A stretch of DNA of 64,000 bases from Clostridia bacterium (GTDB lineage Bacteria > Bacillota > Clostridia > Christensenellales > Aristaeellaceae): NCBI GenBank assembly GCA_017509255.1, contig JAFWQA010000006.1:62001-126000 (forward strand), written 5' to 3'. A program made the translations under genes and the position numbers. Shown one piece after another: positions 15,399-64,000 of the stretch (position 1 is its first letter; every line of letters starts with the position of its first letter). The notes under the pieces were generated by a model. The model was given only the letters and a program-made list of their open reading frames with translations, did not search any database and was not told the DNA's origin.

Positions 15399-15469
15399 AG
15401 CGGGTGATGGGAATCGAACCCACGTTACCAGCTTGGAAGGCTGGAGCTCTGCCATTGAGCTACACCCGC
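15399..15469 (-). tRNA. tRNA-Gly(TCC)
   Basis: Acceptor GCGGGTG/CACCCGC, D-loop AGCTCAATGGCAGAGC, anticodon stem CCAGC-CTTCCAA-GCTGG giving TCC, T-loop GGTTCGATTCC. CCA is not encoded. Last gene of the seven-tRNA array. Confidence 0.95.
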
Positions 15470-15472
15470 AGA

Positions 15473-15547
15473 TGGAGCGGTAGACGGGATTCGGACCCGC
15501 GACATCCACCTTGGCAAGGTGGCACTCTACCACTGAGCTACTACCGC
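15473..15547 (-). tRNA. tRNA-Gly(GCC)
   Basis: Acceptor GCGGTAG/CTACCGC, anticodon loop TTGCCAA giving GCC, T-loop GGTCCGAATCC. The 3' CCA is encoded. It lies four bases from the neighbouring tRNA-Gly(TCC). Confidence 0.95.
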
Positions 15548-15573
15548 ATATCCACTGCAAAAACCGGGGTAAG

Positions 15574-15653
15574 TGCGGACGAAGAGACTCGAACTCTTAC
15601 GTCTGAGACACCGGAACCTAAATCCGGCGCGTCTGCCATTCCGCCACGCCCGC
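15574..15653 (-). tRNA. tRNA-Leu(TAG)
   Basis: Acceptor GCGGGCG/CGTCCGC. Anticodon stem CCGGA-TTTAGGT-TCCGG gives TAG. The variable arm is shortened (about GTGTCTCAGAC), total 80 nt. CCA not encoded. Confidence 0.93.
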
Positions 15654-15678
15654 TTGGTCCCGGCGAAGGCAGGAAAAG

Positions 15679-15751
15679 TGACCCATTGGAGATTCGAACT
15701 CCAGACACCTTGATTAAAAGTCAAGTGCTCTGCCAACTGAGCTAATGGGTC
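15679..15751 (-). tRNA. tRNA-Lys(TTT)
   Basis: Acceptor GACCCAT/ATGGGTC with discriminator A. Anticodon stem CTTGA-CTTTTAA-TCAAG gives TTT. T-loop GTTCGAATC. CCA not encoded. Confidence 0.95.
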
Positions 15752-15758
15752 ATAATGC

Positions 15759-15829
15759 TGGGGTGGCAGGGCTCGAACCTACGAATGCGGGAGTCAAAGT
15801 CCCGTGCCTTACCACTTGGCTACACCCCA
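15759..15829 (-). tRNA. tRNA-Gln(TTG)
   Basis: Acceptor TGGGGTG/CACCCCA region. Anticodon stem CGGGA-CTTTGAC-TCCCG gives TTG. T-loop GGTTCGAGCC. CCA not encoded. The U1-A72 closing pair is typical of tRNA-Gln. Confidence 0.94.
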
Positions 15830-15870
15830 ACGTAGGTAATTCTGCCGGAAAACCACCGAACGGGAAAAAA

Positions 15871-15948
15871 TGGGGTGAGTAGTGGGACTCGAACCCACGG
15901 TCTCCAGAGCCACAATCTGGCGCGTTAACCAACTACGCTATACCCACC
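15871..15948 (-). tRNA. tRNA-His(GTG)
   Basis: Has the extra G-1 that marks tRNA-His, paired with C73. Acceptor GTGGGTA/TACTCAC. Anticodon stem CCAGA-TTGTGGC-TCTGG gives GTG. CCA is encoded. Confidence 0.95.
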
Positions 15949-15958
15949 ATATGTTTGG

Positions 15959-16032
15959 CGCGCCTGGAGGGACTCGAACCCCCGGCCCACGGCTTAGAAG
16001 GCCGTTGCTCTATCCAACTGAGCTACAGGCGC
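15959..16032 (-). tRNA. tRNA-Arg(TCT)
   Basis: Acceptor GCGCCTG/CAGGCGC with discriminator G. Anticodon stem ACGGC-CTTCTAA-GCCGT gives TCT. First gene of the array, about 75 bp from the promoter. CCA not encoded. Confidence 0.95.
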
Positions 16033-62165: not shown

Positions 62166-63548
62166 TCACAGATGCAGCAGACCGTTTGCGATGCTGAAGT
62201 AGACCAGCAGGCTCAGCGCGTCCACGGTGGTGGTGATGAACGGACTCGCCATCACCGCCGGATCAAAGCCCAGCTTCTTGGCGCACATCGGCAGTACGCA
62301 GCCGACGACCTTGGCGATGATGATCGTGACCAGCATCGTCAGGCAGACCACTGCCGCCACGAGCACCGTAATATCATCATTCGCCAGCAGCATTCTGTCC
62401 ACCAGCATGATCTTCGCGAAACACAGGATCGCCAGCGCGATGCCGCACATCACGGCAGTCCGGATCTCTTTCCAGATCACGCTCGGCAGATCCCGGAATT
62501 CCAGTTCGTTCAGGGAGATCGCGCGGATCACCGTCACAGAGCTCTGAGAGCCGGAATTACCGCCCGTGTCCATCAGCATGGGAATGAATGCTGTCAGGGC
62601 CACCTGCGCGGCCAGCGCTTCCTCAAAGCTCGTAATGATCAGCCCGGTAAAGGTGGCTGAAACCATCAGCAGGGCCAGCCACGGAATGCGGTGCTTGAAC
62701 AGGTCCCAGGGAGAGGACCGGAGATAGGTCTTGTCGCTCGGCGTAATACCGGCCATGATCTCCATGTCCTCGGTTGTCTCGTCTTCCATGACGTCCATGG
62801 CGTCGTCGAATGTAACGATACCGACCATCCGGTTGTCGCTGTCCACCACCGGGATCGCCAGCAGGTTGTACTTGCTCATCATCTGAGCCACTTCCTCCTG
62901 GTCGGTATGGGTGTTCACGGTGATCAGCCCGGAGCCGCTCTCCATCACGCTGTCAATGGTCTGCATGTCGCTCGGCGCGAGCAGCAGGCTCTTCACGGAC
63001 ACTGTGCCCACCAGCAGCCGGTTCTCCAGGACGTAGCAGGTGTAAATGGTTTCCTTGTCCACGCCCGTCCGGCGGATCCGCAGGATCGCGTCTCCCACCG
63101 TCATATCCGGCCGCAGGCTTACATACTCCGTTGTCATCACGGACCCTGCGGAATTCTCCGGATACTGCAGGATCTCGTTGATCTCCTTGCGCATCTGCGG
63201 GTCGGACTGCGCCAGGATCCGCTGCACCACGTTTGCGGGCATCTCTTCCACGATGTCCACCGCGTCGTCCACGTACAGTTCATCCATCACCTGCCGCAGC
63301 TCGCTGTCGCTCAGCCCGCGGATCAGCAGCTCCTGCTGGTCGCTTTCCATCTCCACAAAGCTTTCTGCCGCCAGCTCCTTGGGCAGCAGCCGGAAAAGCA
63401 GCGGCAGCTGCTCCGGTTCGCACCCGGAAAAAACCGCGGCAATATCTGCCGGATTCATTGTTACCAGAATATCCCGAATAGTCGGATACTTCTTGCTTGC
63501 CAACAATGACTGCAGCGTGTTTTCAACTGTTACAGAATGCTCCGTCAT
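62166..63548 (-). CDS. mgtE: Magnesium transporter MgtE
   Basis: 460 residues. N-terminal domain (about 15-120: MNPADIAAVFSGCEPEQLP, YVDDAVDIVEEMPANVVQRIL), a CBS pair (about 125-255: AGSVMTTEYVSLRPDMTV, NLLAIPVVDSDNRMVGIVTFDDAMDVMEDE), the plug helix, and five transmembrane helices (about 275-460) with FIPMLMDTGGNSGSQSS and GFDPAVMASPFITTTVDAL. It is a Mg(II)-gated channel. The ATG at 63548 follows GGAGGAGGGAG. Expression is probably controlled by the 310-nt leader, which carries a structured RNA and upstream reading frame. Confidence 0.95.
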   Translation of the reverse strand: MTEHSVTVENTLQSLLASKKYPTIRDILVTMNPADIAAVFSGCEPEQLPLLFRLLPKELAAESFVEMESDQQELLIRGLSDSELRQVMDELYVDDAVDIVEEMPANVVQRILAQSDPQMRKEINEILQYPENSAGSVMTTEYVSLRPDMTVGDAILRIRRTGVDKETIYTCYVLENRLLVGTVSVKSLLLAPSDMQTIDSVMESGSGLITVNTHTDQEEVAQMMSKYNLLAIPVVDSDNRMVGIVTFDDAMDVMEDETTEDMEIMAGITPSDKTYLRSSPWDLFKHRIPWLALLMVSATFTGLIITSFEEALAAQVALTAFIPMLMDTGGNSGSQSSVTVIRAISLNELEFRDLPSVIWKEIRTAVMCGIALAILCFAKIMLVDRMLLANDDITVLVAAVVCLTMLVTIIIAKVVGCVLPMCAKKLGFDPAVMASPFITTTVDALSLLVYFSIANGLLHL

Positions 63549-63722
63549 GCGAGCTCCCTCCTCCCATTTTGTCAGAATGGTCAATAACCGGAAGCCGGCA
63601 AAGCGGTCAAAAGCCTATCAAGCCCGCGCGTTTCTTTCCCCCTCGGTCTGTGCGCACAGCACACACCGCCCCGTACCTTGCGGCAGGGGCGGAACAACAG
63701 ACGGCAGAATGGCTGGCTTAAA
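63549..63722 (-). promoter_or_regulatory. Rest of the mgtE leader, with a GC hairpin
   Basis: Between the upstream reading frame and the mgtE start. CCGCCCC (63686-63692 on the minus strand) pairs with GGGGCGG (63666-63672), without a following T-run. CCATT/AATGG (around 63558-63577) forms a small hairpin just before the mgtE ribosome binding site. No intrinsic terminator was found, so control would act on translation or through Rho. Confidence 0.5.
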
Positions 63723-63806
63723 TCAGATGTGGAACAGGAACGTCATGGCGTTCTTGCTCCGCTGTCTTCGCCCGACCGGTATGCCGCTGCTACTCCCAGC
63801 GTCCAT
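63723..63806 (-). CDS. 27-codon upstream reading frame in the mgtE leader
   Basis: ATG at 63806 with a strong AAGGAGG seven bases upstream. The peptide begins MDAGSSSGIP and ends KNAMTFLFHI before TGA at 63723-63725. It is basic in the middle (GRRQRSK) with a hydrophobic end. Both the start codon and part of the ribosome binding site lie in the closing helix of the RNA at 63737-63814, so translation and folding exclude each other. It could be a genuine leader peptide, or a frame that exists because of RNA constraints. Confidence 0.55.
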   Translation of the reverse strand: MDAGSSSGIPVGRRQRSKNAMTFLFHI

Positions 63807-63814
63807 GACATTCC
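63737..63814 (-). ncRNA. Three-way-junction structured element in the mgtE leader
   Basis: On the minus strand GGAATGTCATGG (63814-63803) pairs with CCATGACGTTCC (63748-63737), 12 pairs with one G-U. Hairpin A is CGCTG-GGAGTAG-CAGCG (63801-63785). Hairpin B is CCGGTC, loop GGGCGAA, then GAC-AG-CGG (63779-63759). The linkers GCATA and AGCAAGAA stay single-stranded. This is the compact shape of a metabolite- or metal-sensing RNA, and the loop motifs are reminiscent of known metal riboswitches, but I could not match it to a named class. Confidence 0.6.
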
Positions 63815-63868
63815 CTCCTTGTTTTTCTGTTTTTTTCAGGTTGAAATATCTCTCAGCCCGCTTTGTTG

Positions 63869-63898
63869 ATTATACCTTTCAGCCTTTCTCTTTGTCAA
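63869..63898 (-). promoter_or_regulatory. Promoter of the mgtE transcript
   Basis: On the minus strand TTGACA (63893-63898), 18-bp spacer, TATAAT (63869-63874). The transcript would start near 63862 and carry about 313 nt before mgtE. Confidence 0.8.
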
Positions 63899-63953
63899 TC
63901 CGCAAACTGAATAAAAACAGGCCAAAATCATCTCCGTGTATAAAAGCCCCCGG

Positions 63954-64000
63954 TCAACCCAGCGCGACATCCAGAGCCATCATGACCGTAAAACCGACGG
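63954..64000 (-). CDS. C-terminal tail of a probable ZIP-family metal transporter (partial)
   Basis: The frame enters from the right edge and stops at TGA 63954-63956. The last residues are VGFTVMMALDVALG, a tail characteristic of ZIP-family divalent-metal transporters (GF-x-x-MMxLDVALG). Too little is present for certainty. It would lie upstream of mgtE on the same strand, with the mgtE promoter about 55 bp downstream. Confidence 0.5.
   Translation of the reverse strand, partial: VGFTVMMALDVALG

Follow-up and report, generated by a model that had tools for sequence, protein, structure and literature searches.

A short acid-led reading frame whose start site pairs with its own tail: a candidate leader-peptide switch ahead of mgtE in Clostridia

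In mgtL and corL of Escherichia coli and Salmonella a short upstream open reading frame (uORF) stands ahead of a Mg2+ transporter gene and within mutually exclusive RNA structures. Glu2 and Asp4 of the EPDP sequence of MgtL are needed and destabilize the ribosome at low Mg2+, upon which mgtA is transcribed (PMC11282234), and the translation of corL is inverse to the expression of corA (PMC11552253). In Firmicutes genes of the mgtE type are controlled by the M-box (RF00380; ykoK leader). A conserved small uORF following a Mg2+ riboswitch, with masking of the Shine-Dalgarno (SD) sequence, is known from mycobacteria, where it lies ahead of pe20 and is described as specific for mycobacteria (PMC12810186). 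Finally, the mgtE motif, a riboswitch candidate, is a structured mgtE leader with SD and AUG in a stem, which is reported exclusively from Thioalkalivibrio and holds the start of the associated open reading frame rather than that of a uORF (PMC11109978).

The leader described here precedes mgtE in a Clostridia bacterium, probably an Aristaeella of the rumen. It is like mgtL and corL in the arrangement of uORF, transporter gene, and exclusive RNA structures, and like mgtL in the acidic residue at position 2 of the peptide. It differs from both in that the transporter is MgtE, in that phylum and peptide sequence are others, and in that a helix (P1) joins the start site of the uORF to the uORF's own tail. 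The read-out of mgtL and corL is Rho-dependent. No description of this element was found in the literature, most subscription papers lying outside the search. The leader would be a variant of control by a Mg2+-leader open reading frame, for which no shared ancestry with mgtL is asserted.

The window, by which is meant the whole stretch of 64,000 nucleotides analysed, carries the locus on its minus strand. It also holds RNase P RNA at 1512-1843 and, on the minus strand, seven clustered tRNA genes at 15399-16032. The gene mgtE (62166..63548) encodes a protein of 460 amino acids with the domains MgtE_N, CBS, and MgtE, by family a Mg2+ transporter; its SD sequence GGGAGGAGGG lies at 63556..63565. 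The promoter TTGACA-18-TATAAT (63869..63898) agrees with the consensus in 12/12 positions, and TTGAC/TATAAT-like sequences are also present upstream of the leader in aligned relatives. The uORF, MDAGSSSGIPVGRRQRSKNAMTFLFHI, comprises 27 codons and extends from the ATG at 63806 to a stop ending at 63723 (63723..63806); its SD sequence AAGGAGG (63814..63820) is near-invariant across 39 leaders of the genus. From the stop of the uORF to mgtE there are 174 nt, within which a strong hairpin CCGCCCC/GGGGCGG (63692-63666, minus strand) without a T run is observed. As with MgtL and CorL, a short, putatively translated uORF with an SD sequence and under selection is found ahead of a Mg2+ transporter gene.

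A first-pass annotation of this DNA had described the 27-codon frame and a 12-bp helix burying its start codon and part of its SD sequence, and both are found at exactly these coordinates. P1 pairs 63814-63803 with 63748-63737 and contains one G-U pair. Its 5′ arm GGAATGTCATGG (63803..63814) consists of the end of the SD sequence, the start codon, and the first base of codon 2, and its 3′ arm CCATGACGTTCC (63737..63748), the anti-RBS (RBS, ribosome binding site), is made up of codons 20-24 of the uORF. A 140-nt piece has P1 in its best fold, at −46.4 kcal/mol as compared with −34.4 ± 3.2 kcal/mol for shuffled sequences (z −3.8; 0/200 shuffles as low). The minimum-energy fold of the 323-nt leader contains not P1 but a rival hairpin (63731..63760; 63760-63749 paired with 63742-63731), and both compete for the same CGTTCC (63742-63737). 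P1 and the rival hairpin are thus mutually exclusive, a property tested in the genus only.

That the leader is a conserved and structured one, as the same annotation had proposed, is borne out by its presence in 39 of the 45 genomes of the genus and in all 13 of those with a completeness of 90% or more and a contamination of 5% or less. The uORF is 25-29 codons long in the 39 leaders. Four matches at E values of 9e-4, 0.0019, 0.0086, and 0.0091 (L040-L043) were rejected as being without the leader core. A scan of named collections returned 34 stretches, 33 of them in records of uncultured Clostridia/Clostridiales from rumen and gut, which by eye (33/33) appear to be the contigs that had already given the genus loci; the remaining one, from Lysobacterales (L084), was read as a chance match.

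The annotation had gone further and placed two hairpins within P1, making a three-way junction whose folding might depend on a ligand. If this were a genuine riboswitch, Mg2+ or another metal would be bound by the junction and its elements GGAGUAG and GGGCGAAG, and binding would stabilize P1, shut the uORF, and so signal to mgtE. The near-absolute conservation of the core in the 39 genus leaders argues for it: about 40 nt are near-invariant, silent codon positions included, and because AGGAGGGAATGTCATGGACGCTGGGAGTAGCAGCGGC is near-invariant within the genus, also at silent positions, an aptamer keeps some probability. The strong local fold of the 140-nt piece also points in this direction, as does the over-use of AGT serine codons in 76 leaders (see below). 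The inner hairpins, however, are poorly kept. P2 (CGCTG-GGAGTAG-CAGCG; 63785..63801) is kept in the genus only; it shows there a single change, U-A to U-G, which as a wobble is uninformative within the genus, and of 16 distinct relatives outside the genus only 3 have the whole of P2. In P3 (CCGGTC/GACAGCGG) one pair is broken in 17/36 and another in 12/35 distinct genus sequences, and the AGCAAGA linker, whose conservation had been named as support for an RNA, is variable in the genus leaders. Other families share, by eye, little between the P1 arms beyond the N-terminal codons. Neither did Rfam, where a known family might have offered another explanation, give a match to the leader in the window or any match up to E 10 in 63500-64000. 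The yybP-ykoY Mn2+ riboswitch has a GGGAGUAG-like string; in the leader, which is without an Rfam match, this string represents the codons Gly-Ser-Ser in a hairpin loop. The outer helix of the proposed junction is supported, the inner hairpins are not supported beyond the genus, the aptamer was demoted for its poorly kept inner hairpins, and we consider a riboswitch unlikely.

Compensatory changes in P1 had been named as evidence for an RNA. In the genus alignments no P1 pair is changed on both sides, because the 5′ arm hardly varies. P1 is nevertheless paired in 94.9% of the cells of 31 gap-free distinct genus leaders. The codon opposite the start codon is ATG (17), GTG (15), CTG (3), or ACG (1) and the following one GCG (19), ACG (14), or GCA (3), and in 3/39 rows the codons opposite the uORF start are unmatched; in the varying arm these choices are almost only changes that pairing allows. 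In the rival hairpin two-sided changes occur at 7 of its 12 pairs (3.7 ± 1.2 in shuffles) and in 16 cells (7.8 ± 2.1 in shuffles). It should be noted that the hairpin when slid by +2 columns still has 8 pairs and 14 cells with two-sided changes, whereas cell pairing is 81.5% in register vs. 49.5% slid and the covariation score 0.280 vs. 0.146. The alignment used for P1 pairing and for covariation of the rival hairpin omits 5 of the 36 distinct genus sequences (L022, L024, L027, L030, L037); that used for conservation and the inner hairpins keeps all 39 rows, with L022 misaligned.

Outside the genus, pairing in P1 is kept with changed sequences. A covariance model together with a DNA pattern revealed the same arrangement ahead of mgtE in eight genomes of the order, belonging to other genera and families (G173, G504, G275, G105, G124, G255, G141, G226). 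For example, a uORF beginning with MDASSSSG goes with the pairing arms GGTAATAAATGG/CCATTTATTACC, and one beginning with MDAGSSSG with ACACCATGG/CCATGGTGT. In one such family the peptide-like pattern was found in 22/103 genomes and the reversed control pattern in 0/103, mgtE lying downstream of each distinct printed leader except L123, which is at a contig end. Pattern matches without mgtE (L097, L101, L104, L109, L110) and weak model matches without an MDA-type frame (L088-L091) were rejected. The covariance-model and M-box searches across more than 40 genomes used stricter filters.

The occurrence of such uORFs was also surveyed independently of any pattern, by locating MgtE genes by protein and then examining the upstream regions directly. 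Within the order (58 genomes, 47 with MgtE, 27 upstream regions examined) a uORF of this type is present at 22 of the 27 loci and absent from 5; in two of the 22 it is residue 3 that is acidic. The class survey covered 177 genomes, 104 with MgtE, and 89 examined loci; the 89 loci come from 87 of the 103 MgtE-bearing genomes besides G000, taken mostly down the score list, and 85 leaders were used, leaving out three short loci (L195, L197, L204) and one short upstream stretch (L226). A frame of 12-45 codons with an SD sequence and an acidic residue 2 is present in 47/85 of these leaders, as compared with 4.75 ± 2.0 (maximum 12) in 60 shuffles and 1/85 on the reverse strand; 38/85 are without such a uORF by these criteria. 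A peptide motif count of 36 vs. 0.8 in the class leaders was defined after viewing the peptides and is not relied on. In the phylum sample (96 genomes, 64 with MgtE, 29 loci examined) such a uORF was found at 12/29 loci, a count without shuffle control that includes one locus from the class itself, the position of mgtE being wrong in 3/29 at contig ends (L284, L292, L297). The frames found include MDAGSSSGTIPDRRR, MDAGPYPS, MDDGARC...VPRSRR, MDSDPLPG, MDPEPLS, MDYPDPLP, and MDADPGSS. At one locus a Gut-1 RNA (RF01706) is located just downstream, on the same strand as mgtE (L161:1324-1395). The recurrence of one layout with differing letters across many Clostridia suggests a widespread switch.

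Whether start site and tail of the uORF pair more strongly than expected was measured by comparing the duplex of the RBS/start region (−14 to +8) and the region +30 to +115 with that in shuffles. In 68 of 95 leaders, chosen by eye, 91 of them with an acid at residue 2, and in part related and hence not independent, the duplex is significant at p ≤ 0.05 (7/7 in the genus, which has 39 leaders in all, 18/34 in the order, and 43/54 in the class; mean z −3.6, −2.3, and −3.16, respectively); for the window leader p is 0.005. As controls, the upstream region (−130 to −45) gave p ≤ 0.05 in 5/95 (0/7, 2/34, 3/54) with a mean z near 0, and pairing of the mgtE RBS with the sequence that follows it did so in 3/68. 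Each anti-RBS pairs with its own uORF RBS by 8.5 kcal/mol better than expected (0/2000 permutations; n = 80). The 3′ segment sits at the end of the uORF or close to it, and its sequences are unrelated between lineages. Since the sequences differ widely and the pairing stays, this is in effect covariation, measured on unaligned leaders. The data support an RNA helix, and what this helix has in common between leaders is that it contains the uORF start site. That both the N-terminus and the RBS-locking helix recur outside the genus points to the translating ribosome as the sensor, not to an aptamer.

The peptide begins with M-D-x-[G/D]-[P/S], conservation being mainly confined to codons 2-7 in 76 leaders, namely those not found by the DNA pattern. 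In codons 2-4 bases 1 and 2 are the most and base 3 the least conserved, whereas in codon 5, unlike in a coding pattern, base 3 is the most conserved; beyond codon 8 conservation is low except at base 1 of codon 10 (0.42 bits) and of codon 12 (0.29 bits). Residue 2 is acidic in 72/76, a set largely gathered by that feature, the unbiased count being the 47/85 of the class. Gly, Ser, and Pro are abundant among residues 3-9. In a set of 88 leaders the mean net charge is −1.05 over residues 2-8 and +1.95 thereafter. The mgtL peptide, too, has basic residues later in its sequence. An early pair of acids (residue 2 with 3 or 4) is found in 19/88 chosen leaders outside the genus, P-x-P within the first 11 residues in 22/88, and a Pro within four residues after an acid in 43/88; in the peptide of the window Asp2 is the sole acidic residue and a proline is at residue 10. 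With so few early acid pairs and P-x-P sequences, destabilization of the ribosome may often be weak. Six peptides searched against Pfam and NCBIfam gave no relevant family, libraries which may hold no MgtL model.

Control at the level of initiation alone, with P1 itself sensing Mg2+ or temperature and thereby setting uORF translation irrespective of the peptide, is difficult to reconcile with a conserved N-terminus that has a coding signature at codons 2-4 and with the strong enrichment of an acid at residue 2. We consider it very improbable even though P1 is the most widely kept structure and corA is lowered in an E. coli mutant in which the corL SD is more readily accessible (PMC11552253).

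Codon usage adds a further feature. Within residues 3-10 serine is coded by AGT in 64/107 cases, compared with 41/311 in mgtE, and proline by CCT in 40/77, compared with 35/186 in mgtE. This bias perhaps reflects slow decoding or a constraint on the RNA, and the AGT-rich serine codons hint at a further role at the RNA or codon level. It also fits a ribosome-arrest peptide, which would stall the ribosome at codons 2-8 in response to a signal other than Mg2+, such as transporter state or translation stress; the stalled ribosome would prevent P1 and let the rival hairpin form. The concentration of conservation on residues 2-7 and the covariation of the rival hairpin in the genus are in line with this. 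But a nascent chain of this length hardly reaches into the exit tunnel, what recurs is an acid with Gly/Ser/Pro rather than one fixed arrest motif, and Mg2+ is suggested by the company of mgtE and of M-boxes. We consider an arrest peptide quite unlikely.

An acid-led N-terminus, a Mg2+ transporter, and a start site within a structure are together what the logic of MgtL fits. We give an about even chance to the reading that the leader is a leader-peptide switch for MgtE, similar to MgtL and CorL with no homology detected, in which the response to Mg2+ and the read-out would be as follows. The ribosome would load once the SD sequence has emerged, ahead of synthesis of the 3′ arm. When Mg2+ is sufficient, it would read through the acidic, Gly/Ser/Pro-rich N-terminus and keep P1 open, and translation of the uORF would hold mgtE down. 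At low Mg2+ the ribosome would drop off at codons 2-7 by intrinsic destabilization; P1 would then close on the start site and keep other ribosomes from entering the uORF, and with the uORF locked mgtE would be expressed.

How the signal could reach mgtE was considered for several routes. Where the stop is near mgtE, the translating ribosome would occupy the mgtE RBS; the stop lies 13-29 nt before mgtE in 19/49 class leaders. The finder of the mgtE start in the mgtE-RBS tests required a gap of 12 nt or more behind the uORF stop, and shorter gaps and overlaps are invisible to it. In other lineages a terminator or an RBS hairpin would be involved. Terminator-like hairpins were counted in 15/49 leaders of the class, 5/31 of the order, and 3/7 of the genus (5.3, 2.8, and 0.8 in shuffled sequences), and on these counts a common terminator as universal read-out was rejected. 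A duplex between anti-RBS and mgtE RBS was likewise rejected as a general read-out; it is weak and lineage-limited, with a mean of −0.82 kcal/mol (6/2000 permutations; 0.03 for the class group). Pairing of the mgtE RBS reaches p ≤ 0.05 in 17/81 leaders, the mgtE-RBS tests having used 81 and the permutation tests 80 of the 95 leaders. At five class loci (L189, L202, L235, L236, L249) a hairpin contains the mgtE SD sequence and is directly followed by a T run; there terminator and mgtE RBS may be one element. The read-outs seem to differ between lineages. For the leader in the window none of close stop, terminator, and mgtE-RBS pairing is clearly found; translation of the uORF would have to lower mgtE across the 174-nt gap.

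The annotation had held that the leader does not fit the M-box, and indeed no M-box was found in the window (up to E 10 in 63500-64000) or, with stricter filters, in the 12 genus genomes tested. In the class an M-box stands ahead of mgtE on the same strand at 13/60 loci (L219, L224, L228, L255, L256, L257, L262, L263, L266, L267, L269, L271, L275), and in all 13 a uORF of similar kind lies between M-box and mgtE. Nine of these uORFs are from the leader set and four are separate (MNAGSSG, MVADSTG, MDSGPLP, MDSGPSSG), MNAGSSG and MVADSTG being without an acid at residue 2. The distance from M-box to uORF is 43-152 nt at 12 loci and 417 nt in L257; in L256, L267, and L275 the uORF extends into mgtE in a different reading frame. 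The search found no M-box at another 29 loci of the class (L189-L217). In genus g35 M-box and uORF occur together in 2/2, and G286 and G963 have an M-box and no MgtE match. Apparently, the tandem of M-box and uORF represents two Mg2+ devices in one leader. The link to Mg2+ proposed for the leader thus appears likely by analogy, from the transporter family and the co-occurrence with M-boxes. Tentatively, and with not quite an even chance, these leaders may encode a family of leader peptides that spans the phylum, senses Mg2+ on behalf of MgtE, and arose independently of MgtL. It would work like a fuse that fails and locks, in that the loss of a single ribosome from the N-terminus allows the tail of the frame to lock the start codon, alone in the genus and under an M-box in other lineages.

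If this is true, the sensing of Mg2+ via the stability of the translating ribosome would be a strategy of Clostridia also and not an enterobacterial peculiarity, and Clostridia would have arrived at it with a different transporter and a different RNA architecture. The control of mgtE in many anaerobes of gut and rumen that lack an M-box would then be accounted for, and one would have to ask why two Mg2+ devices are stacked in some lineages. The self-locking start site is simple in its layout and lends itself to searches elsewhere. Direct predictions for reporter and toeprint tests follow from the model.
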